Shown: piece after piece, positions 53,827-64,000 of the stretch | Numbering within the stretch: the first letter of the stretch is position 1 | How the letters are laid out: each line of letters begins with the position of its first letter | DNA from: Hyphomicrobium sp. | Lineage (GTDB): Bacteria > Pseudomonadota > Alphaproteobacteria > Rhizobiales > Hyphomicrobiaceae | Direction: 5' to 3' | Length of the DNA stretch: 64,000 bases | Assembly: GCA_013141015.1 (NCBI GenBank) | Contig: JABFRT010000001.1 | Coordinates: forward strand, 1 to 64,000 | Position numbers and translations under genes: made by a program | Notes under the pieces: model-generated | The model's database searches: none | Told to the model about the DNA's origin: nothing | What the model saw: the letters and a program-made list of their open reading frames with translations, nothing else

Positions 53827-54199
53827 GTGACAAACCTTTTTCGTTGCGGTGCTGTGCTTTATTCGATGCTGTGCTTGAAATGCGAACGCGGCTTCACGCC
53901 AGCGACACGCAGGACAGCGCCAATCAAGCACGGATCGGACCGGTAAAAAATCTGTTCTTTTTCCGGGAACGGCGAAATCCGTTTCAGTTCAGTATTTTCA
54001 TCAAACCACAGGTTAGGGCCGCGCTTTTCGCTGGCTATGCCGGGATACTGAGGGTTGGGAATTGTTGAGATTGTTGCTGATGCACGCCCAGATAGCGAAG
54101 AGTGATAACGCTCAGTTAACTCCATCCTGGCAAGATCCAGCCGGTTAGCGTCCCTGCCTTCTCCGGTAGGGGGTATGTGTGCTTGTAAGGTGCGTAGCG
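53827..54199. other. Divergent tex/flavoprotein gap, no gene
   Basis: 373 bases without a credible gene. A 10-base direct repeat TGCTGTGCTT occurs at 53850 and 53867. The region should hold promoters for tex and for the flavoprotein-ankyrin operon. Confidence 0.4.
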
Positions 54200-55516
54200 A
54201 TGGATATCGAACTAGCGGTTTATGGCGTTCCGCTGGCAATGTTCTTTGCTGCATATGGTTTTTCCCGCTCGCGGGAGCATGCGCGTAGCGTCTCGCTGCT
54301 GGCCGAATCGCTTGAAGCCGGCCTCGGCGAACCGCCTACGCTTCACCCCGTCATTGATCTCGCCAAATGCATGGGTTGCGGCAGTTGCGTGTCGGCCTGC
54401 CCCGAGGGAGAGATCCTCGGCCTGATCGACAACAAAGCCACGTTGATCGAACCGGCAGAATGCATCGGTCACGGCGCCTGCAAAGCGGCCTGTCCGTTCG
54501 ACGCAATCTCATTGGTGTTCGGCACAGAAACGCGCGGCGTGGAATTGCCAGTGGTCGGGCCCGATTTTCAGACCAATGTCAAAGGACTGTATATTGCCGG
54601 CGAACTTGGCGGAATGGGCCTTATCCGAAACGCCATCGAGCAGGGCCGCCAAGCCCTGAACGCGATAGCGGCACGCAAGGACGCCACGACCGCCAACATG
54701 CTCGACGTTTTTATCGTTGGCGCGGGGCCGGCTGGCATGTCGGCAAGTCTCGGTGCGCTGGAAAAGAAGATGCGCTGCGTGACCGTGGAACAGGAAGAGC
54801 TCGGCGGCACAGTTGCTCACTTCCCGCGCGGTAAACTGGTGATGACGCAACCCGCCACGCTGCCACTCGTCGGCAAGATGAGCTTCCGCGAGGTATCCAA
54901 AGAGGCACTGTTAGACTTCTGGCAGCAGTCCGTGCGCAAAACCGGCTTAAAAATTCAATTCGGCGAACGCGTCGAGGAAATCCGGCCCTTGGGCCCCAAC
55001 AAGGGCTTCGAAATCCGCACCACCTCGGGCGCCTATACGTCCAACACCGTGCTCCTGACCATCGGCCGCCGTGGCACACCAAGAAAGCTCGGAGTACCTG
55101 GTGAAGACCAGTCCAAAGTGGTCTACCGTCTGATAGATCCCGCCCAATACGCTGGCCAGAACGTGCTCGTGGTCGGCGGCGGCGATAGCGCCATTGAAGC
55201 GGCGAACGCCCTTGCCGGCGAGCCTGGCACGACGGTCACTTTATCATATCGCAGTGGTGCATTCGCGCGATGCAAACCAAAAAACCGCGCCAAGATCGAG
55301 GCGAACCGAAGCGAAGGCCGGGTCAACGTCGTGCTCAACTCAACCGTCAAGAGCATCTCGGATCGCTCCGTCGTTTTGACCCGCAAACTGGATGACGGTG
55401 CACGCACTGTAGAAATCAAGAATGACGTGGTCATTGTCTGCGCTGGCGGCATCCTGCCATCCGACTTTCTCCGCAAAATCGGCATTGAAGTTGAGACGAA
55501 ATATGGCACGCACTAA
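54200..55516 (+). CDS. Membrane-anchored Fe-S flavoprotein (ferredoxin plus TrxR-like)
   Basis: A 438-residue protein. Residues about 4-21 are a hydrophobic anchor. A ferredoxin part follows with Cys57, 60, 63 and 67 in CMGCGSCVSACP, and a second motif with Cys88, His91, Cys94 and Cys98 in CIGHGACKAACP, so one Cys is replaced by His. The rest is a low-molecular thioredoxin-reductase-like FAD/NAD(P) fold: GAGPAGM (174-180) for FAD and VVGGGDSAIEAA for NAD(P). No CxxC redox pair is seen. The order suits electron transfer between NAD(P)H, flavin and Fe-S clusters at the inner membrane. Its stop overlaps the ankyrin gene start by 14 bases. Confidence 0.85.
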   Translation: MDIELAVYGVPLAMFFAAYGFSRSREHARSVSLLAESLEAGLGEPPTLHPVIDLAKCMGCGSCVSACPEGEILGLIDNKATLIEPAECIGHGACKAACPFDAISLVFGTETRGVELPVVGPDFQTNVKGLYIAGELGGMGLIRNAIEQGRQALNAIAARKDATTANMLDVFIVGAGPAGMSASLGALEKKMRCVTVEQEELGGTVAHFPRGKLVMTQPATLPLVGKMSFREVSKEALLDFWQQSVRKTGLKIQFGERVEEIRPLGPNKGFEIRTTSGAYTSNTVLLTIGRRGTPRKLGVPGEDQSKVVYRLIDPAQYAGQNVLVVGGGDSAIEAANALAGEPGTTVTLSYRSGAFARCKPKNRAKIEANRSEGRVNVVLNSTVKSISDRSVVLTRKLDDGARTVEIKNDVVIVCAGGILPSDFLRKIGIEVETKYGTH

Positions 55517-56603
55517 ATCACATCAAGCCGGGCTGATAGCCTGCACACTGGCGCTTTCGGTGCTTGTTCATCTGGTGCCGGTGCACGCCGAGCCGGGCGT
55601 TACGACTTACTTTGGCAACACGACCAGTGTTGCCCCTCTGATTGAGGCTACGGCTTTCGGGCAGGCTAACCGGGTTGCTGAACTCCTCACCACGACGCCC
55701 GATGCCGTCGATGCCGTCGATGCCGTCGATGCCACCGGCAATTCTGCGCTCAATATCGCTGCTGCGCGCGGCCATGTCGCAATTGCAAAGCTGCTGATTG
55801 AGGCGGGAGCTAAAGCCGATCTAGCCAATGCGCGGCTTGAAACGCCCCTCGCTCAGGCTGCAGCCTACGGGCACACCGCGATCATCAGGCTGCTGGGCGC
55901 GAAAAGCGCAATGATCAATCAGCCGACGATCGCAGGCCTAACCCCACTCGCGCTTGCTGCCACGCGGTGTCATGACGGAGCCATTGCCGCGTTGTTGAAA
56001 GCCGGCGCCGCCGTCAACGCACCAGCCGGAAAAGAGCGGCAGACTGCGCTTATGATTGCTTCCCAGCATTGCGACGAGAAAACCCTCGCTGAGATTCTGC
56101 ATTCGTCATCAACGCGGACGGCTGCCCTCGCCGCCCGCGATAGCAAAGGACGCACCGCGCTGTGGCATGCCGCAAACGCCGGCAATTACGCTGCACTGGC
56201 CATTTTGCTGCCGGCTGGCGCCAGCGTGAATGCTGCTGATGATGCCGGTGAGACGCCATTGCACCGCGCGGTTGCGCACCCTGCAGTGGCGACGCTGCTG
56301 CTGTCTAAGGGGGCAGACGCAGAAACGCCATCACGTGATGGCACGACGCCGCTTCTATGCGCGGCGGCAACTGGTGTACGTGGGGTTCTGGAGGCCTTGC
56401 TGAAGCATGGAGCGGCCGTCAACAGCCGCAATCAGCATGGACAAACAGCCCTCATGGTTGCGGCATCGGCAGGTCGAGCGGAGGCCGTGCAGGTGTTGCT
56501 CGAGGCCGGCGCAAATCGTTCGCTTCGCAACCTCCGGCGGGAATCCGCTGTCGAAATCGCGGACAAGAACGGCCACAAAACCATCGCGTCGGCGCTGCGC
56601 TGA
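55503..56603 (+). CDS. Exported ankyrin-repeat protein
   Basis: A 366-residue protein with a likely signal peptide ending near VPVHA (residue 29). From about 45 to the end it consists of about nine ankyrin repeats, seen as repeated G.TAL..AA..G....V..LL..GA patterns. These form a protein-binding surface, here in the periplasm. It overlaps the flavoprotein gene by 14 bases, so the two are translated together and may act together. A DAVDAVDAVDA insertion lies at the first repeat and comes from a 9-bp DNA repeat. The 3' end faces the beta-barrel gene with a 30-base gap. Confidence 0.85.
   Translation: MARTKSHQAGLIACTLALSVLVHLVPVHAEPGVTTYFGNTTSVAPLIEATAFGQANRVAELLTTTPDAVDAVDAVDATGNSALNIAAARGHVAIAKLLIEAGAKADLANARLETPLAQAAAYGHTAIIRLLGAKSAMINQPTIAGLTPLALAATRCHDGAIAALLKAGAAVNAPAGKERQTALMIASQHCDEKTLAEILHSSSTRTAALAARDSKGRTALWHAANAGNYAALAILLPAGASVNAADDAGETPLHRAVAHPAVATLLLSKGADAETPSRDGTTPLLCAAATGVRGVLEALLKHGAAVNSRNQHGQTALMVAASAGRAEAVQVLLEAGANRSLRNLRRESAVEIADKNGHKTIASALR
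55701..55736 (+). repeat. 9-bp tandem repeat in the ankyrin gene
   Basis: Three exact copies of GATGCCGTC and a fourth variant copy GATGCCACC. They keep the reading frame and code for repeated Asp-Ala-Val. Confidence 0.85.
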
Positions 56604-56633: not shown

Positions 56634-58976
56634 TTACCGGCTGGAATTGAAGTCGTACCGCAAACCACTGAGCAGCAGCAGCTCAGTCTCGTTTTCTTCG
56701 CCGCGGGCGGTTTCGCGCGTTGTCCATCGTTTGCCGATTTCGAATTCCAACTGAACGTTCTGCGCGAAATTGTACGAAGTGCGAAGCATGGGATGGATGA
56801 CGTATTCCTCACTGTGGTCGTTCGTGTAGCCGGCGTATCCAAGACGCAATGATGGGCCGACATGCCAATTCGGATCGCTCATAGGCATCCGTATGGACGC
56901 TTCAAACAACGTCCGCGCGGCCGATTGCGTGGCTGCATAGCGCACGGTTCCGGTGATCGAGTCATTTTCGCGCAGAACGTCCGTGGCCATCAGCTGCAAC
57001 ATCGTATAGGTATCCCAACCCGTGGAAGGGGTCGCCGCCACGCCGCCCGATTCGGGCAGTGATGCCATGTTGGCGACTGTCACTTCTCCGGTGATTTGCA
57101 GCTTTTCTTGAATGTAGCGCGAGTAGGAAATGCTGGCGAAGGTGCTGATGGGTGTTCGGTCCCGCGCCAAGCTCTCGATTTCCTGTGTCGTGTAGCGCCC
57201 CAGTAGATCCTGCAACGAAGTTTCAACTTGCCCCTGGAGTGCATTGCTTACAAAAAGTGTCGGTGAGCGGCGATAATCAAGCATTGCAGTCAGCGATGAC
57301 TTGTCTTCGAAGTTAAGCGTGCCGCTGCCAAGCAGACTGTTGATCTCGCCGAAATAGACGTCGTAGTCCATCGAGCCGAAACCATATCCGGTGTCGTCCA
57401 CATAGCGTGCCTCAGCGCCGATGGCCCGCCGCTCAAGGAAATCGCCAGCCTCTTGTTGAACAACGAATGCGCCAACATCCAACTTCTTGCTGAACGTATA
57501 GTCGGCGCTTGCACCAAAGAAGGCTCTGTCGAATTGAAACGGCTGATCGTTGGCGCGTTCGACCGGTCCGCCGCCGTAAAACCGCATCATCCAGTCGGCT
57601 GCAACCGGCATCGTCAGGATCCCACCGTCGAAGCGCCCAAGCACGCCGCCGCCATAGTGCGTCTGGCGCCCGACTCGCAAACTCGTGCCGCTTTCCTTGT
57701 GTTTTCCTTCGAAGGTCAACGTCGAAATGCGCGCTTCATCCTCAGTATCGGTAAAGCGCTTTTCGTGCGACGCAGACACGTGAACTGTGGCCCGATAGAA
57801 CGGATTGTTGGCCTCACCTTCGTAATCGCCAAGCGACAAGATGCTGTTGCGATACACCCGGTTGATGCTTTCCTTGTCCCATCCGTTCTGCAAATTTGGA
57901 CGGACGAAGAAATCGCGTCCTCCTTGGTTCAAGTTGTAATATGCTGATGCGCTTCCCGATTGCTGGAAGGTCCAGGCATCAGGCGGCTGTGCAGGCGGGG
58001 CTTTGTCGTCGGAGAGGCTCGGACGCAGGTCCCCGCCATTTGCAGCGCTCGGCGTAGCCGTTAGCCTGTCTTGAAGTTTAACGGTGCCATGCGCAGCTGT
58101 GGCTGCTGGCGTGGGCGGTGGCTTGATCTGCTCGCGCTTATCTAGTGCCGCCAGCCGCTTCTGAACGCGCGCATTTCCCTCGCCCTTTGGAAACTGCCTC
58201 AGATAGTTTTGATATTCGGCTCTTGCATGAGCCAGATGGCCCTTTTGTTCCTGCGCTACGCCGAGAAGTTCAAGCCCTTCAGCCAGTTGCTTGGTCGTGC
58301 CAGCTTCAGTCACCCGCGTCAGCAGTGCGATGGCCCGGTCGTAGTCGGCTTTGGCCATTGCCGCACGGGCATCCGCGATGTCGATATCAAGCGGCGTCAA
58401 GCCCGGCTTGCCAAGGATTTTGGGCACACTGGAGGCCGCTGCCGCATCATCCATTTCTGGCTTGCAGCTGGAGTTGGGCGTGCGGCCCGCAATGGCGATC
58501 AAAAGCGCACGCGCATCCTTTGCAGGTGCAACGCGAAACGCCACCGCATGCCGGAAATAGACGCTGAGCGTCTGCTCCTGCCCGCTGCTTTCCAACTCGA
58601 TGCTGCCGATTGCCGCCTGTGCGCTCGCTGGTGCCCCGGTCTGCTCGCGCCGTACGGTGGGCTTGCCGGTCGATTTTGCGGGTTCATTGGCGACAGCCGC
58701 CTTGTCCCCCTGCGCCACAACCGGCCGGTCAAGAAGCTCAAGATTTATGCGCAGTTCATCGCCCGACGCCTCGTGGAAATGGCTGCGCATCTGCACGCGG
58801 CTGTAGAATTCAATGCGGAGAATGGAGCACGCCCCGCGCTCAACTATTGTCGCGCCCGCCAAATTATGGTCGGCGATGATCTGCGCATCTGCCGGCATTG
58901 CCCAAAGCGCAGCGATGCCGGCCGCCAAAACCGGCCCGCGTGCCAACCGTAAGACTTGGGATCGCTGTAAATCCAC
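56634..58976 (-). CDS. TPR-containing outer-membrane beta-barrel protein
   Basis: A 780-residue exported protein. Signal peptide ends near residue 31 (MPADA). Residues about 32-170 are a beta-rich N-domain. Residues about 205-285 are helical TPR-like (AMAKADYDRAIALL, LGVAQEQKGHLAHARAEY). A linker follows, then about 450 residues of alternating amphipathic strands (from about 330 to the end), as in large outer-membrane barrels. It is 111 bases downstream of the giant cytochrome gene on the same strand. By analogy with MtrB/PioB it may be the porin sleeve of an electron conduit, but I see no direct similarity that proves this. It lacks a final Phe and ends LRYDFNSSR. Confidence 0.8.
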   Translation of the reverse strand: MDLQRSQVLRLARGPVLAAGIAALWAMPADAQIIADHNLAGATIVERGACSILRIEFYSRVQMRSHFHEASGDELRINLELLDRPVVAQGDKAAVANEPAKSTGKPTVRREQTGAPASAQAAIGSIELESSGQEQTLSVYFRHAVAFRVAPAKDARALLIAIAGRTPNSSCKPEMDDAAAASSVPKILGKPGLTPLDIDIADARAAMAKADYDRAIALLTRVTEAGTTKQLAEGLELLGVAQEQKGHLAHARAEYQNYLRQFPKGEGNARVQKRLAALDKREQIKPPPTPAATAAHGTVKLQDRLTATPSAANGGDLRPSLSDDKAPPAQPPDAWTFQQSGSASAYYNLNQGGRDFFVRPNLQNGWDKESINRVYRNSILSLGDYEGEANNPFYRATVHVSASHEKRFTDTEDEARISTLTFEGKHKESGTSLRVGRQTHYGGGVLGRFDGGILTMPVAADWMMRFYGGGPVERANDQPFQFDRAFFGASADYTFSKKLDVGAFVVQQEAGDFLERRAIGAEARYVDDTGYGFGSMDYDVYFGEINSLLGSGTLNFEDKSSLTAMLDYRRSPTLFVSNALQGQVETSLQDLLGRYTTQEIESLARDRTPISTFASISYSRYIQEKLQITGEVTVANMASLPESGGVAATPSTGWDTYTMLQLMATDVLRENDSITGTVRYAATQSAARTLFEASIRMPMSDPNWHVGPSLRLGYAGYTNDHSEEYVIHPMLRTSYNFAQNVQLEFEIGKRWTTRETARGEENETELLLLSGLRYDFNSSR

Positions 58977-59087
58977 GTCTGCAAACCGATCTATGACCTC
59001 AGATCAAGAGGTCGCAAGATTCGGTTCACAAGCGGTTAATCCGTGAGCTTACTTTGGCCAGCGTCTACCGGACGTCATCGCCCGGCT

Positions 59088-62000
59088 CTACCAAGATGAC
59101 TTGTTGGCGCGGTGCTCACCCGTTTTGGACTTACTAATCTTGGTCAAGGTGCTGTCGGTGTATTGATGGCACGCACCCGCGCAATCTCTGAGATCGCTCA
59201 CCGTGTACAAAACGCTGCCGTACTTCTTGTGCGCACTCGGTTTGAAGTCAGACGCGTGGCATCCGGCGCAACTGCGGGCGTATGCTGGCGTCCGCCATGT
59301 CACGGCCTCAGCGTTGGTTGTATGGCAGCTCTTACAAGTCAGCGAGCCTGCGTGGTCGCCCGGATATCCAGATGATGTATGCCTGAACGTTGACGGCTTC
59401 CAGACCGTGTTCACATGGCAGTAGTCGCAATTCCGGGTCGTTATGAAGTGGGTTGCGGTCTTGCCGGTCGCTTTGGCCCCGGTATGACAGACCGAGCAAG
59501 CTGCTGCCGCGTAGGTATGATTAAACGTTGCCGGCAACCAACCCGCCGTCTTGTGGCATGCGCTGCATTCGCCAGTTACCGGCAGATGCGTCGCAGATTT
59601 GCCCGGCGCCTTGGTGCCGTTGTGGCAGGAACTGCAAGAGCCAACGACTTGCGTGTGATCGACGCGCGTCGCAGGCTTAAACGTTGTCGTGTTGTGACAA
59701 TTGACGCAGGCTGTTGTCGAGGCGATATGCGTCACCGGCTTGCCTTTGGCGGCAGTGCCGTTGTGGCAGGTGACGCAGGCCGACGATGTTTGCGTATGGT
59801 CCATGCGTGCCGGCTTGAAGGCCGTGGTCGTATGGCAAGATGCGCACGCTGTCGTCGTAGGGATGTGGCCGGCCTTTTTGCCCTTGGCAACGGTGCCGTT
59901 GTGGCAGGCCGCGCATGTCCCGACGACTTGCGTGTGGTCGACTTTCGTCACAGGCTTGAACGCCGTCGTCGTGTGGCACGCCGCGCAATTGGTCGATGAC
60001 GCGATGTGGGCCGCGGTCTTACCCTTGGCAATCGTTCCGTTGTGACAGGTCACGCACGTGCCGGAGACTTGGCTGTGGTCGACCTTCGATGCCGGTTTGA
60101 ACGCCGTGGTCGTGTGGCAACTGGCGCATGCTGTGGTTGAATTGATGTGCGTTGGCGTTTTGCCTTTGGCAATCGACCCGTTGTGGCATGTGGCGCAAGC
60201 GCCGGTCACTTGAGAGTGTTCGACGCGTGTGGCCGGCTTGAACGACACGGTGTTGTGGCATGACTGACATGCCGTGGTCGATGCAATGTGCGTCGCGTGT
60301 TTGCCCTTTGCCGTCGTACCGTTGTGGCAGGTGACGCAACCTGACGTCACGCCGGTGTGATCGAACTTCGTCGCTGGTTTGAACGCCACCGTTGAGTGGC
60401 ATGCGCTGCAATTCGACGTCGTGACGACATGGCCAGCATTCTTGCCCCTGGCAATCGTGCCGTTGTGGCAGGCCGTACAAAGCCCCATGACCTGGCTGTG
60501 ATCGACCTTTGTTGCGGGCTTCCAGGCCGTCTGTACGTGGCACGCCTGGCACGCGGTGGTCGAAGCAATGTGCTTCGCTGTTTTCCCGGATGCATTGGTT
60601 CCGTTGTGGCAAACCGAGCATGGCGCGACGGTCGTCTTGGCGTGTGTAAACGTGCTGGGCTTGAACGCGGCCGTCGTGTGGCACGCTTCGCAATTCGTGC
60701 CGGATGAAATGTGTGTTGCCGGCTTCGGGCTTGCGTAAACGCCGTTGTGGCAGGTCGCACAGCCCGTCGTGATGCCGGTATGATTGAACGGCGTCGGCTT
60801 CCAAGCGGCCGTGGAGGTGTGGCACGTTTCGCAGGCTTTTGCCGTCGGAACATGCGTGGTGGGCTTGCCAGTGGCAGATGTACCGTTGTGGCAGCTTGCG
60901 CATCCCGAAGTCACGTCGGTATGGCCGAACTTCGCGGGTTTGAAAGCATTGGTGGTATGGCAGACTTCGCATCCCTGGGCAGTCGCGATGTGCGTTGCGT
61001 GTTTGCCCTTCGCCGTGGTGCCGTTGTGGCAGGTGGCGCAACCAGCCACGATGCCGGTGTGAACGAATTTCGCCGGCTTAAATGCTGCCGTCGTATGGCA
61101 CAGCTCACACGGCTGGGCCGTGGCAATGTGGTTGGCGTCTTTTCCGGTTGCCGTCGCGCCGTTGTGGCAGGTGGCGCAGCCGGTCGTGATGCCCGTGTGG
61201 CTGAACGCGGCGGGAACCCAGCCGGTTATCTTGTGGCAGGTTTCGCAAGCCTTCGTGGTCGGCACGTGCGTTGCTGCTTTGCCGGTCGCAGACTTTCCGT
61301 TATGGCAAGACGCGCAATTGCCGGTGATGCCGGTGTGCTTGAACACGGTTGGCTTCCAAGCCGTTTTGACATGGCAAGTTTCGCACGGCTGCGTTGTCGG
61401 CAGATGGGTCGCGTGCTTGCCAACGGCCGCTTTGCCGTTGTGGCAAGAGGCGCAATTTCCGGTAATGCCGGTGTGATTGAACACGGTCGGCTTCCATGCC
61501 GCTATGACGTGGCAGGTCTCGCACGGCTGTGCTGTCGGGATGTGACCGGCTTTTTTGCCGATGGCGTTGCTGCCGTTGTGGCACGACGCGCAATTGCCGG
61601 TGACGCCGGTGTGCTTGAACGACGTCGGCAACCAGCCCGTCGTCTTGTGGCAGGTCTCGCACGACTGCGTGGCCGGAATATGCGTTGCGCTCTTGCCGGT
61701 TGCCGCCGTGCCGTTGTGGCAGCTGCTGCAGTTGTTCGTAATGCCTGTGTGGTTGAACACGGTCGGCTTCCAAGCAGAAGTCGAATGGCAGGTCTCACAC
61801 GGCTGCGCTGTTGGCATATGCGTGGCCGTCTTGCCCTTGGCGGTGGTGCCGTTGTGGCACGTGGTGCAGCCCGTGCTGATGCCGACGTGGTTGAAGAATG
61901 ACGGACGCCAACCTGTCGTGGCGTGGCACGTTTCGCAGGCTTGCGTGGTCGGAATATGCTTCGCGGCCTTGCCCTTCGCCGTGGTGCCGTTGTGGCAGGT

Positions 62001-62320
62001 GGCGCAACCAGCCACGATGCCGGTGTGAACGAATTTCGCCGGCTTAAACGCTGCCGTCGTATGGCACAGCTCACACGGCTGGGCCGTGGCAATGTGGTTG
62101 GCGTCTTTTCCGGTTGCCGTCGCGCCGTTGTGGCAGGTGGCGCAGCCGGTCGTGATGCCCGTGTGGCTGAACGCGGCGGGAACCCAGCCGGTTATCTTGT
62201 GGCAGGTTTCGCAAGCCTTCGTGGTCGGCACGTGCGTTGCTGCTTTGCCGGTCGCAGACTTTCCGTTATGGCAAGACGCGCAATTGCCGGTGATGCCGGT
62301 GTGCTTGAACACGGTTGGCT
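59088..62320 (-). CDS. Giant multiheme cytochrome c, C-terminal part
   Basis: This segment is open from 62320 to the stop at 59088, about 1,077 codons, and holds 44 CxxCH heme c motifs plus one final CxxxCH. The repeat unit has two motifs in 46-48 residues: CxxCH-x-T-x-x-W/F-K-P...H, then CxxCHNG...GK...H. Each unit also holds two more His, enough for a second ligand on every heme. Units near the N-terminal side have W.P..F.HTGIT; those nearer the C-terminus have FKPAT.VDH.QV. The tail is rich in Ser and Lys. It has no start of its own: a single missing base at about 62322 breaks it from the upstream part. It is followed by the beta-barrel gene. Confidence 0.85.
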
Positions 62321-63046
62321 TCAAGCCGTTTTGACATGGCAGGTTTCGCACGGCTGCGTTGTCGGCAGATGGGTCGCGTGCTTGCCAACGGCCGCTTTGC
62401 CGTTGTGGCAAGAGGCGCAATTTCCGGTAATGCCGGTGTGATTGAACACGGTCGGCTTCCATGCCGCTATGACGTGGCAGGTCTCGCACGGCTGTGCTGT
62501 CGGGATGTGACCGGCTTTTTTGCCAATGGCATTGGTGCCGTTGTGGCACGACGCGCAATTGCCGGTGACGCCGGTGTGCTTGAACGACGTCGGCAACCAG
62601 CCCGTCGTCTTGTGGCAGGTCTCGCACGACTGCGTGGCCGGAATATGCGTTGCGCTCTTGCCGGTTGCCGCCGTGCCGTTGTGGCAGCTGCTGCAGTTGT
62701 TCGTAATGCCTGTGTGGTTGAACACGGTCGGCTTCCAAGCAGAAGTCGAATGGCAGGTCTCACACGGCTGCGCTGTTGGCATATGCGTGGCCGTCTTGCC
62801 CTTGGCGGTGGTGCCGTTGTGGCACGTGGTGCAGCCCGTGCTGATGCCGACGTGGTTGAAGAATGACGGACGCCAGCCTGTCGTGGCGTGGCACGTTTCG
62901 CAGGCTTGCGTGGTCGGAATATGCTTCGCGGCCTTGCCGGTCGCCGTGGTGCCGTTGTGGCAGGTGGCGCAACCAGCCACGATGCCGGTGTGAACGAATT
63001 TCGCCGGCTTAAATGCTGCCGTCGTATGGCACAGCTCGCACGGCTG
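61003..63046 (-). repeat. 966-bp tandem duplication in the cytochrome gene
   Basis: The same block starts at about 61021, 61987 and (shortened) 62952, with steps of 966 and 965 bases. 966 bases is 322 codons, exactly seven units of 46 residues with 14 heme motifs. The two full copies differ at only a few bases by eye, so the duplication is recent. The one-base shorter copy carries the frameshift. The edges are approximate. Confidence 0.85.
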
Positions 63047-64000
63047 ACTTGTTGAAAGATGGTTTGCGTCTTTACCGGAAGCGGTCATGCCGTTGTGGCA
63101 AGTTGCGCACCCGCCAGAGATCCCGGTGTGACTGAATTTCGCTGGAACCCACCCGTTCGTCGCGTGGCACGCTTCGCATGGCTCGTTGGCCGGTACGTGC
63201 GTCCTGGCTTTACCGGTCGCCGTCTTGCCGTTGTGGCATGCCGCACAGCCTGAGACGATACCAGCATGACTGAAGAAGGCCGGCTTCCATGCGCCTACCG
63301 CGTGGCACGCTTCGCATGGCGCTGCCGTAACAACGTGGAGCGGTCCTTTGCCCGTTGCCGACTTGCCGTTGTGGCAGGTGGCACATCCGTCGGTAATGCC
63401 GACATGGGCAAAATGGGTCGGCGCCCAGGCCGCCGTGTCGTGACAGGTCTCGCACGTCGCGGCCGTAAGCAGATGTCCAGCCTTCTTGCCAACGGCGTTG
63501 GTGCCATTGTGGCAGTTGGCGCACGCCCCGGAAATGCCGGTGTGATTGAATAAAGTCGGCAGCCAACCGGCCGTCGTGTGGCAAACGTCGCAAGCCTGCG
63601 TGGCCGGAATATGCGATGCGGCCTTGCCCGAAGCCGTGTTTCCGTTGTGGCACGTGGTGCAACCCGTCGTGATGCCCTGATGACTGAATTGGGTCGGCTT
63701 CCAAGCCGATGTCGTGTGGCACGTCTCGCACGGTTGAGGAGTTGGCATATGGGTTGCTGACTTACCCGTGGCGCTGACGCCATTGTGGCAACTCAAACAG
63801 CTTGACGTGATACCGACGTGATTGAAGAACGACGGCTTCCAACCCGACGTGAAATGGCAATCCTCACAAGGCTGTACGGTCGCGATGTGACGTTGAGATT
63901 TTCCTGTCGCCGTCCGGCCATCATGGCACGTCGCACACCCTCCGTTGATGCCACTGTGATCGAAGCTGGTCGGGATCCAACCGGTCGTCGCGTGGCAGGT
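62321..64000 (-). CDS. Giant multiheme cytochrome c, upstream part (runs off window)
   Basis: Open from the window edge at 64000 to a TGA at 62321-62323. It holds 24 complete CxxCH motifs and the end of one more at the edge, in the same two-heme units as the following segment. The start, signal peptide and any other domain lie outside the window. The stop falls exactly at a conserved Trp: the same place 966 bases on has TGGAAG, here TGAAG, so loss of one G creates the stop. The two segments are therefore one gene broken by a frameshift, real or from assembly. Together they carry 68 complete CxxCH motifs in this window. Confidence 0.85.
   Translation of the reverse strand, partial: TCHATTGWIPTSFDHSGINGGCATCHDGRTATGKSQRHIATVQPCEDCHFTSGWKPSFFNHVGITSSCLSCHNGVSATGKSATHMPTPQPCETCHTTSAWKPTQFSHQGITTGCTTCHNGNTASGKAASHIPATQACDVCHTTAGWLPTLFNHTGISGACANCHNGTNAVGKKAGHLLTAATCETCHDTAAWAPTHFAHVGITDGCATCHNGKSATGKGPLHVVTAAPCEACHAVGAWKPAFFSHAGIVSGCAACHNGKTATGKARTHVPANEPCEACHATNGWVPAKFSHTGISGGCATCHNGMTASGKDANHLSTSQPCELCHTTAAFKPAKFVHTGIVAGCATCHNGTTATGKAAKHIPTTQACETCHATTGWRPSFFNHVGISTGCTTCHNGTTAKGKTATHMPTAQPCETCHSTSAWKPTVFNHTGITNNCSSCHNGTAATGKSATHIPATQSCETCHKTTGWLPTSFKHTGVTGNCASCHNGTNAIGKKAGHIPTAQPCETCHVIAAWKPTVFNHTGITGNCASCHNGKAAVGKHATHLPTTQPCETCHVKTA

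Follow-up and report, generated by a model that had tools for sequence, protein, structure and literature searches.

Known conduits and the locus under study

The closest described system to the locus treated here is PCC3, a candidate porin-cytochrome conduit that was first found in iron oxidisers and that consists, according to He et al. 2017 (PMC5566968), of a porin, many-heme extracellular and periplasmic cytochromes and an inner-membrane protein. The inner-membrane protein is described there as having about 300 amino acids (aa) and five transmembrane (TM) segments, with an SGXXG motif on TM4 and a WX3HX13H motif on TM3 and TM5, and was proposed to be quinone-active and to carry two b hemes. 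For the extracellular cytochrome, the same text gives a repeat-containing architecture with 22–39 residues per heme and a median of 34 heme sites, the highest number, 85, belonging to Agromonas oligotrophica S58; the periplasmic cytochrome has a median of 21 hemes, and Amphritea atlantica DSM 18887 is cited with 63 and 21 sites. PCC3 is listed as a candidate conduit in several studies of iron oxidisers, where the link to the inner membrane is hypothesised; gene neighbourhoods with over a hundred motifs are reported in PMC11475568, and PMC13322032 concerns a conduit of the MtrB type, not PCC3. Here, we analyse a PCC3-like gene cluster of a Hyphomicrobium sp. that runs beyond the end of a DNA stretch of 64,000 nucleotides, hereafter the window, corresponding to bases 1–64000 of contig C10 (116,827 bases) in a draft genome of 3.94 Mb and 69 contigs. 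The conduit type itself is already described; the novel element is a recurrent oxidoreductase partner, and it is this flavin/iron-sulfur partner that is worth the attention of specialists.

On the extended contig, the cluster reads, in transcription order, membrane protein, 18-heme cytochrome, giant cytochrome and barrel. On the opposite strand, ending 30 bases from the end of the barrel gene, lie the genes of the oxidoreductase and of an ankyrin-repeat protein.

C10:67593-66568, upstream in the cluster: membrane protein of 341 aa with two WX3HX13H motifs and an SGXXG motif
C10:66649-65171 (= L003:4649-3171), upstream in the cluster: cytochrome with 18 CxxCH
62321..64000, minus strand, on to C10:65032: N-terminal piece of a giant multiheme cytochrome of extracellular type (Pfam Cytochrome_C7, 2.4e-29)
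59088..62320, minus strand: C-terminal piece of the giant cytochrome in another frame (Pfam Cytochrome_C7, 1e-57)
56634..58976, minus strand: PCC3 outer-membrane barrel (AlphaFold2 model and family survey)
54179..55516, plus strand: 2x[4Fe-4S] ferredoxin-like and FAD/NAD(P)-binding oxidoreductase, hydrophobic at its N-terminus (Pfam and co-occurrence)
55422..56603, plus strand: ankyrin-repeat protein, exported-looking by eye, its gene overlapping that of the oxidoreductase (Pfam Ank_2, 2.2e-45)

Membership in the PCC3 family

Membership was tested directly, since the barrel profile retrieves the barrel of A. atlantica DSM 18887 (E 2.6e-129), which stands beside cytochromes with 63 and 21 CxxCH. 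The order in that genome is membrane protein, 21-heme cytochrome, 63-heme cytochrome and barrel, its motif numbers agree with those of PMC5566968, and its 21-heme protein matches the profile of the 18-heme cytochrome (E 3.9e-178). The PCC3 porin has its counterpart in the homologous barrel with 22 long modelled strands, the large cytochrome in a repeat-built protein with 77 CxxCH and one CxxxCH at 25.7 aa per heme (summed over two frames), and the separate periplasmic cytochrome in the protein with 18 CxxCH, the locations of both cytochromes being predicted. The membrane protein carries the published motifs and has five modelled helix positions, though a hydropathy scan gives four segments. 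We conclude that the locus is almost certainly a PCC3 member, a very large one of a known candidate conduit type, and that it very probably acts as an electron conduit. The candidate porin-cytochrome conduit put forward in a preliminary description of the window is supported by this gene content, the 22-strand barrel model and the family membership.

The barrel protein comprises a signal peptide (assigned by eye), an N-terminal beta domain, TPR-like helices and the 22 long strands of the predicted barrel (residues 336–777), which were counted in an AlphaFold2 model from 70 sequences (mean pLDDT 85.2). Of the exported TPR-barrel protein proposed earlier, the barrel is upheld by the model, whereas the TPR match is weak (PF13432, E 6.3e-5, below its cut-off). 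The 50 Foldseek matches listed for the barrel include porins and pilus ushers at low TM scores, but no MtrB; the barrel profile matched the Protein Data Bank (PDB) in its TPR part only. An AMIN-type domain in the N-terminal part was considered and rejected, there being none among the 21 families listed for 26 family members; a SPOR domain is present in two of the 26.

The preliminary description had compared the locus with MtrAB and PioAB, with which it indeed has the general layout of cytochrome plus porin in common. The comparison did not hold: PF11854, the model of the MtrB/PioB barrel, matches neither the barrel nor anything in the whole genome, no decaheme partner was seen, and the DmsE decaheme model TIGR03508 gives the 18-heme protein 15.6 bits against a cut-off of 192.2. 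MtrB/PioB homology of the barrel was rejected on the PF11854 result, and homology of the locus with MtrAB/PioAB is refuted at the level of sequence, which leaves it next to no probability.

For the survey of relatives, six sequences from the family group of the window served to build a barrel profile, and the best 80 of 198 barrel relatives were taken as named loci. In 72 of the 80, a cytochrome with at least four CxxCH lies upstream on the same strand, in 64 cases within 500 bases; 41 of these cytochrome frames start away from a contig edge and have 7 to 63 motifs, one of the 41, that of L040, following an in-frame stop. Among these, the ~78 sites of the giant cytochrome are a high number. 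Some barrel relatives stand alone, since L066 and L112 show no multiheme cytochrome in the at least 8.5 kb examined upstream of the barrel; these two cytochrome-free relatives are located at L066:8711-11623 and L112:9986-11185. The named relatives of highest identity belong to Hyphomicrobiaceae and Hyphomicrobium metagenome genomes. The barrel is also present in records assigned to Nitrospirae, Nitrospinaceae, Omnitrophota, Deltaproteobacteria and Acidobacteriota, which are metagenome bins with possible mis-assignment of contigs.

The motif residues of the membrane protein are W135-H139-H153, SG176xxG180 and W316-H320-H334. Its AlphaFold2 model (mean pLDDT 81.7) has helices at five membrane-length positions, with the histidines on the third and fifth, and the four histidines are present in 38 of 39 sequences, the remaining row being cut short. 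No Pfam or NCBIfam match to the protein was obtained, and comparison of its profile with the PDB yielded nothing convincing. An apparent second kind of membrane protein was observed in genus g35 (G159:C72:13558-14403, G226:C128:2407-3264, G112:C62:54115-54954 and G253:C18:12819-13703). Regarding heme c maturation, which the preliminary description had named as a check, CcmF was found twice in the genome; in genome G070, CcmF/CcmI-like genes were recognised by eye between two PCC3 gene groups (L019:9602-14069).

The giant cytochrome

The whole gene (C10:65032-59088) holds its 77 CxxCH and one CxxxCH in ~1,980 codons over two frames. The N-terminal piece accounts for 33 CxxCH, 24 of them complete inside the window, and the C-terminal piece, which is 74% identical to its G070 ortholog, for 44 CxxCH and the CxxxCH. 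The count given in the preliminary description was thereby confirmed, namely 68 complete CxxCH on the minus strand of the window (24 in one frame, 44 in another), one further CxxCH cut by the window edge and one CxxxCH near the C-terminus, as were the 111 bases to the next gene (stop at 59088, next gene at 58976). Extension upstream, as had been advised, revealed the start, a GTG at C10:65032, and an N-terminal hydrophobic segment. The reading as a single gene in one open frame running off the window was rejected, as evident from the frameshift at 62321: the frame coming from the edge stops there and the rest lies in another frame, so that the "1,637 visible codons" are a sum over two frames. 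It had also been considered that the giant might span the periplasm or extend outside the cell; the former idea is better given up, as a separate 18-heme cytochrome is encoded upstream and the giant fits the extracellular slot of PCC3. The richness in CxxCH is not due to chance, since the other four frames hold none and 1,000 residue shuffles gave 1.0 on average and never more than 5. There are 1.1 further His per heme, which is enough for bis-His ligation.

Two features lie within the gene:

61003..63013, minus strand: near-identical internal duplication with an offset of 965/966 bases, 7 x 138-base units, about 14 hemes
59091..59220, minus strand: C-terminal cap with the CxxxCH site (YTVSDLRDCAGACHQYTDS...), shared among relatives

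Between 63013..61969 and the stretch 965/966 bases on, 1,010 of 1,045 positions fall in exact blocks of at least 40. The CxxCH spacing is mostly 23 residues, as in 29 of the 32 intervals of the N-terminal piece and 33 of the 43 of the C-terminal piece, one 138-base unit being equal to two such intervals. Aligned with the G070 ortholog, from which the duplication block is absent, the first piece covers ortholog residues 1–666 and the second 303–1383; since the pieces overlap on the ortholog, the window gene is longer by a block of about 14 hemes. The locus is thus an example of cytochrome lengthening by the copying of a ~14-heme block. The final CxxxCH occurs in 50 of the 72 surveyed cytochromes adjoining a barrel, by eye mostly within the C-terminal cap, and since it is so widely shared, it looks like a conserved feature.

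The frame break at 62321 lies inside the duplication, whose copies differ by one base in length, the first being the shorter, and is probably an assembly or sequencing error in the repeats rather than a sign of two dead genes. If it were real, the giant cytochrome would be dead or would exist as a short 33-heme form without the C-terminal cap, which we consider improbable. It is true that each of the two giant cytochrome genes of this genome changes frame once and that the frame of the G070 ortholog, too, has a stop near its contig start. However, the break sits in near-identical repeats, where errors concentrate, the motifs go on in the new frame, open frames of the same kind carry 63 motifs in A. 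atlantica and 61 in G470, and He et al. (PMC5566968) mention a sequencing error that had split a PCC3 porin. In the G070 ortholog, the stop is a TGA, in frame, where a heme Cys would be expected, near the beginning of the contig (L019:1-120).

A recurrent oxidoreductase partner

Co-occurrence was analysed in an order sample of 397 genomes, a phylum sample of 339 genomes and the 80 named loci. These are not independent, since there are genomes common to the order and phylum samples and since L040, L041/L043, L048, L050 and L080 are, judged by length and position, the same contigs as G070, G097, G093, G307 and G616. In the profile searches of the genome sets, 2 to 6 candidates were scored per genome, so that further copies could be hidden.

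A full-length oxidoreductase was found in 12 of the 397 order genomes, the best matches scoring at least 571 bits and the next one 60; a third copy in the window's own genome, cut by a contig start, scored 537 bits. The full-length barrel is present in eight order genomes, all of them among these 12 (29 genomes matched, of which 21 were dropped for a short N-terminal TPR stretch only), and the membrane protein in all 12 (7 of 21 matching genomes were dropped, having 48–70 bits only). Fisher p values for association with the oxidoreductase, with kinship ignored, were 3e-14 for the barrel and 3e-21 for the membrane protein. Of the 339 genomes in the phylum sample, the oxidoreductase is present in 4, which are also the ones with the membrane protein, two of six oxidoreductase matches having been dropped because they covered the flavin part only (208–231 bits).

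Four of the 12 order genomes show no barrel match (G326, G096, G091 and G072). In G326, a short contig holds the genes of the membrane protein and an 18-heme cytochrome; in the other three, a gene for a fused membrane protein plus triheme c faces the oxidoreductase. These fused modules (L132:7917-11016, L133:6335-9775 and L134:7810-11044) show no barrel or large cytochrome in the 20 kb examined, and a fused module facing the oxidoreductase is possibly a minimal module.

Among the named loci, the membrane protein is visible in 33 of 80, and all 33 genomes have the oxidoreductase. It lies within about 4.6 kb in 27 of the 33, on the strand of the membrane protein in 5 and on the opposite strand in 22; where the strand is shared, the genes follow one another closely from the oxidoreductase and the ankyrin protein through the membrane protein and the two cytochromes to the barrel. 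As for the other six, three overlap the oxidoreductase on one contig, one abuts it via a contig-end overlap, and one each has it on an equal-sized contig and on another contig. The 47 loci without a visible membrane protein, of which one (L040) shows the oxidoreductase, include 41 with less than 5.4 kb upstream of the barrel; the others (L064, L066, L074, L077, L112 and L113) have at least 8.5 kb, and of the genomes examined among these six, those of L074 and L077 have the oxidoreductase and that of L113 does not. Ankyrin matches were obtained in 14 of the 80 named loci and in 8 of 12 stretches that include those with the fused modules.

The oxidoreductase motifs C64xxCxxCxxxCP and C95xxHxxCxxxCP, including the His, are present in 38 of 38 sequences, and in a simple test for hydrophobicity of the N-terminus, 34 of 37 were positive. 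The flavin part is similar to Bdr/YpdA and TrxR-like enzymes (7a7b, E 9.8e-38, from a profile that held one mis-oriented row), with an NCBIfam YpdA score of 147.8 against a cut-off of 339.9. A conserved redox Cys pair is absent from it, the Cys at 200, 365 and 421 varying among relatives.

This distribution suggests that the oxidoreductase is a regular PCC3 partner, and it is probably a working part of the conduit. No such partner was found by term searches in the texts of PMC5566968, PMC10734462, PMC12442390, PMC12016527 and PMC13386937, to which this statement applies; the enzyme may be drawn in the figures or supplementary tables of He et al., and PMC8788666 was covered for PCC3 and locus names only. 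A regular flavin/iron-sulfur partner provides a testable idea of the electron source or sink in PCC3.

Proposed electron path and alternatives

Ferric reductases and NADPH oxidases bind two b hemes by two HX13H pairs and receive their electrons from NAD(P)H via FAD. The likeness of the PCC3 membrane protein to ferric reductases rests on its His pattern and gene association, as no fold match supports it. The oxidoreductase would play the FAD/NAD(P)H part in trans to the b-heme protein. Anchored to the membrane at the cytoplasmic face, it would take electrons from NAD(P)H, a use suggested by its domain content, and pass them from FAD to two [4Fe-4S] clusters, one with a His in the place of a Cys. 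The next acceptor would be the inner-membrane protein, whose four conserved His may hold two b hemes, and from there electrons would reach the 18-heme periplasmic cytochrome and, through or past the outer-membrane barrel, the ~78-heme surface cytochrome, which is perhaps anchored by its conserved C-terminal cap and the repeat number of which may vary by block duplication. For this chain, we infer heme loading, locations, conduction, the NAD(P)H link and the outward direction. Outward flow is favoured because of the energetics and the lack of RuBisCO in the genome, and NAD(P)H-linked outward flow as the main mode has, in our view, an even chance. More tentatively, PCC3 could be an NAD(P)H dehydrogenase that spans the envelope and bypasses quinones, comparable to an NADPH oxidase split into separate proteins, with the fused b plus triheme c protein as its minimal form. 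Taken as a whole, the locus is best explained as a PCC3 conduit of which the oxidoreductase is probably a working part.

According to the published model of PCC3, the quinone pool is the electron-exchange partner of the inner-membrane protein; the flavin enzyme would then be a neighbour with a different function. This somewhat doubtful alternative agrees with the quinone-active two-b-heme protein of PMC5566968 and with 2 of the 397 order genomes that have the membrane protein without the oxidoreductase (G159 and G226, both of g35), but not with the finding that the full-length oxidoreductase always comes with the membrane protein (12 of 12 in the order sample, 4 of 4 in the phylum sample) or that it faces the fused protein in three barrel-less genomes. 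The same conduit could also carry electrons inwards, the donor being Fe(II), a mineral or another cell; the oxidoreductase would then produce NAD(P)H or have no part in the process. The reduction of NAD(P)+ by electrons from Fe(II) requires energy, which argues against an inward direction. RuBisCO was not found in the genome, other carbon-fixation routes not having been searched, and autotrophic iron oxidation as the default for the organism was rejected within that same scope. In published data for Sideroxydans ES-1, both PCC3 clusters are lower with Fe(II) than with thiosulfate. We consider inward flow unlikely, even though PCC3 was first found in iron oxidisers (PMC5566968) and reversible flow is discussed in the literature for Mto/Mtr. 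That the oxidoreductase serves cytochrome assembly, for instance by keeping heme-site cysteines reduced, is very unlikely: its nearest solved relatives are bacillithiol-disulfide and thioredoxin reductases, as found with the profile mentioned above, but the flavin part has the variable Cys positions instead of a conserved pair, and there are two iron-sulfur motifs in its stead.

Several observations weigh against a PCC3 conduit with the oxidoreductase as a working part. The membrane protein has no PDB fold match at E <= 0.001 (Foldseek), and of 39 relatives only 6 show five hydropathy segments. The oxidoreductase is missing from G159 and G226, which have the membrane protein, and from G487, which has barrel and cytochrome; in G525, oxidoreductase and membrane protein are on different contigs, and in the window the oxidoreductase is found on the barrel side of the cluster instead of next to the membrane protein. 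No membrane protein is seen in the six barrel loci for which 8.5 kb or more upstream are available, and L066 and L112 show no cytochrome either. The giant cytochrome gene carries a frameshift here. Lower PCC3 expression with Fe(II) in ES-1 also counts on this side, although the oxidoreductase partner may help to explain it; Slit_1448, the extracellular cytochrome of the second ES-1 cluster, is 0 in all eight columns of a proteome table in which the membrane protein and porin of that cluster are detected. In strain CL21, both PCC3 copies are expressed above the mean, the sole significant change being a rise of the copy 2 membrane-protein gene in cells able to oxidise iron.

Further copies and gene surroundings

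A second, distinct PCC3 cluster of the same genome is located on contig C28 (L014:9104-19549); its giant cytochrome has one frame change and 49 CxxCH over two frames (16, then 33). A third oxidoreductase and ankyrin pair is cut by the contig start (L130:3-2136), and other genes of its cluster may be on a contig that has not been joined to it. The barrel of the window shares 61% identity with the copy on contig C501 of G070 and 33% with the C28 copy of its own genome, while the C28 barrel is nearer to other copies of G070 and G097 and to that of G093 (53–62%). Since the window barrel is closer to the C501 copy than to its own C28 copy, the genome holds two old PCC3 lines side by side. No other genome of the same genus (20 listed among 103 family genomes) matches the barrel.

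Elsewhere in the window (12387-37977), ordinary metabolic genes were observed, including two glutamine synthetase-like genes, two aldehyde dehydrogenases, a class III aminotransferase and an acyl-CoA synthetase-like protein, perhaps for polyamine breakdown.

Comparison with known systems

With MtrAB, MtoAB and PioAB, the locus shares a porin and a multiheme cytochrome, but its barrel is without PF11854, no decaheme is seen and its cytochromes are far larger. PCC4, as described in PMC5566968, likewise has a porin, multiheme cytochromes (MHC) and an inner-membrane protein (IMP) with the same motifs, and in its Subgroup II the IMP gene is preceded by an Fe-S gene; its cytochromes are, in contrast, 4-, 5- and 10-heme proteins without an extracellular giant. 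The oxidoreductase is like Bdr/YpdA, thioredoxin reductases and TrxR-like ferredoxin-NADP reductases in its FAD/NAD(P) part, and differs from them in lacking the Cys pair and in adding two [4Fe-4S] motifs and a hydrophobic N-terminus.

Compared with PCC3 as given in PMC5566968, the giant of the window, with ~78 sites, is above the median of 34 and below the maximum of 85; the periplasmic cytochrome has 18 hemes rather than 21, and the locus includes oxidoreductase and ankyrin genes that were not found in the text of that paper. In all else compared, the locus is like PCC3: the order IMP, periplasmic MHC, extracellular MHC and porin is that of Slit_1446-1449, and the IMP motifs, the low number of residues per heme, the repeat-built cytochromes and the barrel homology are shared.

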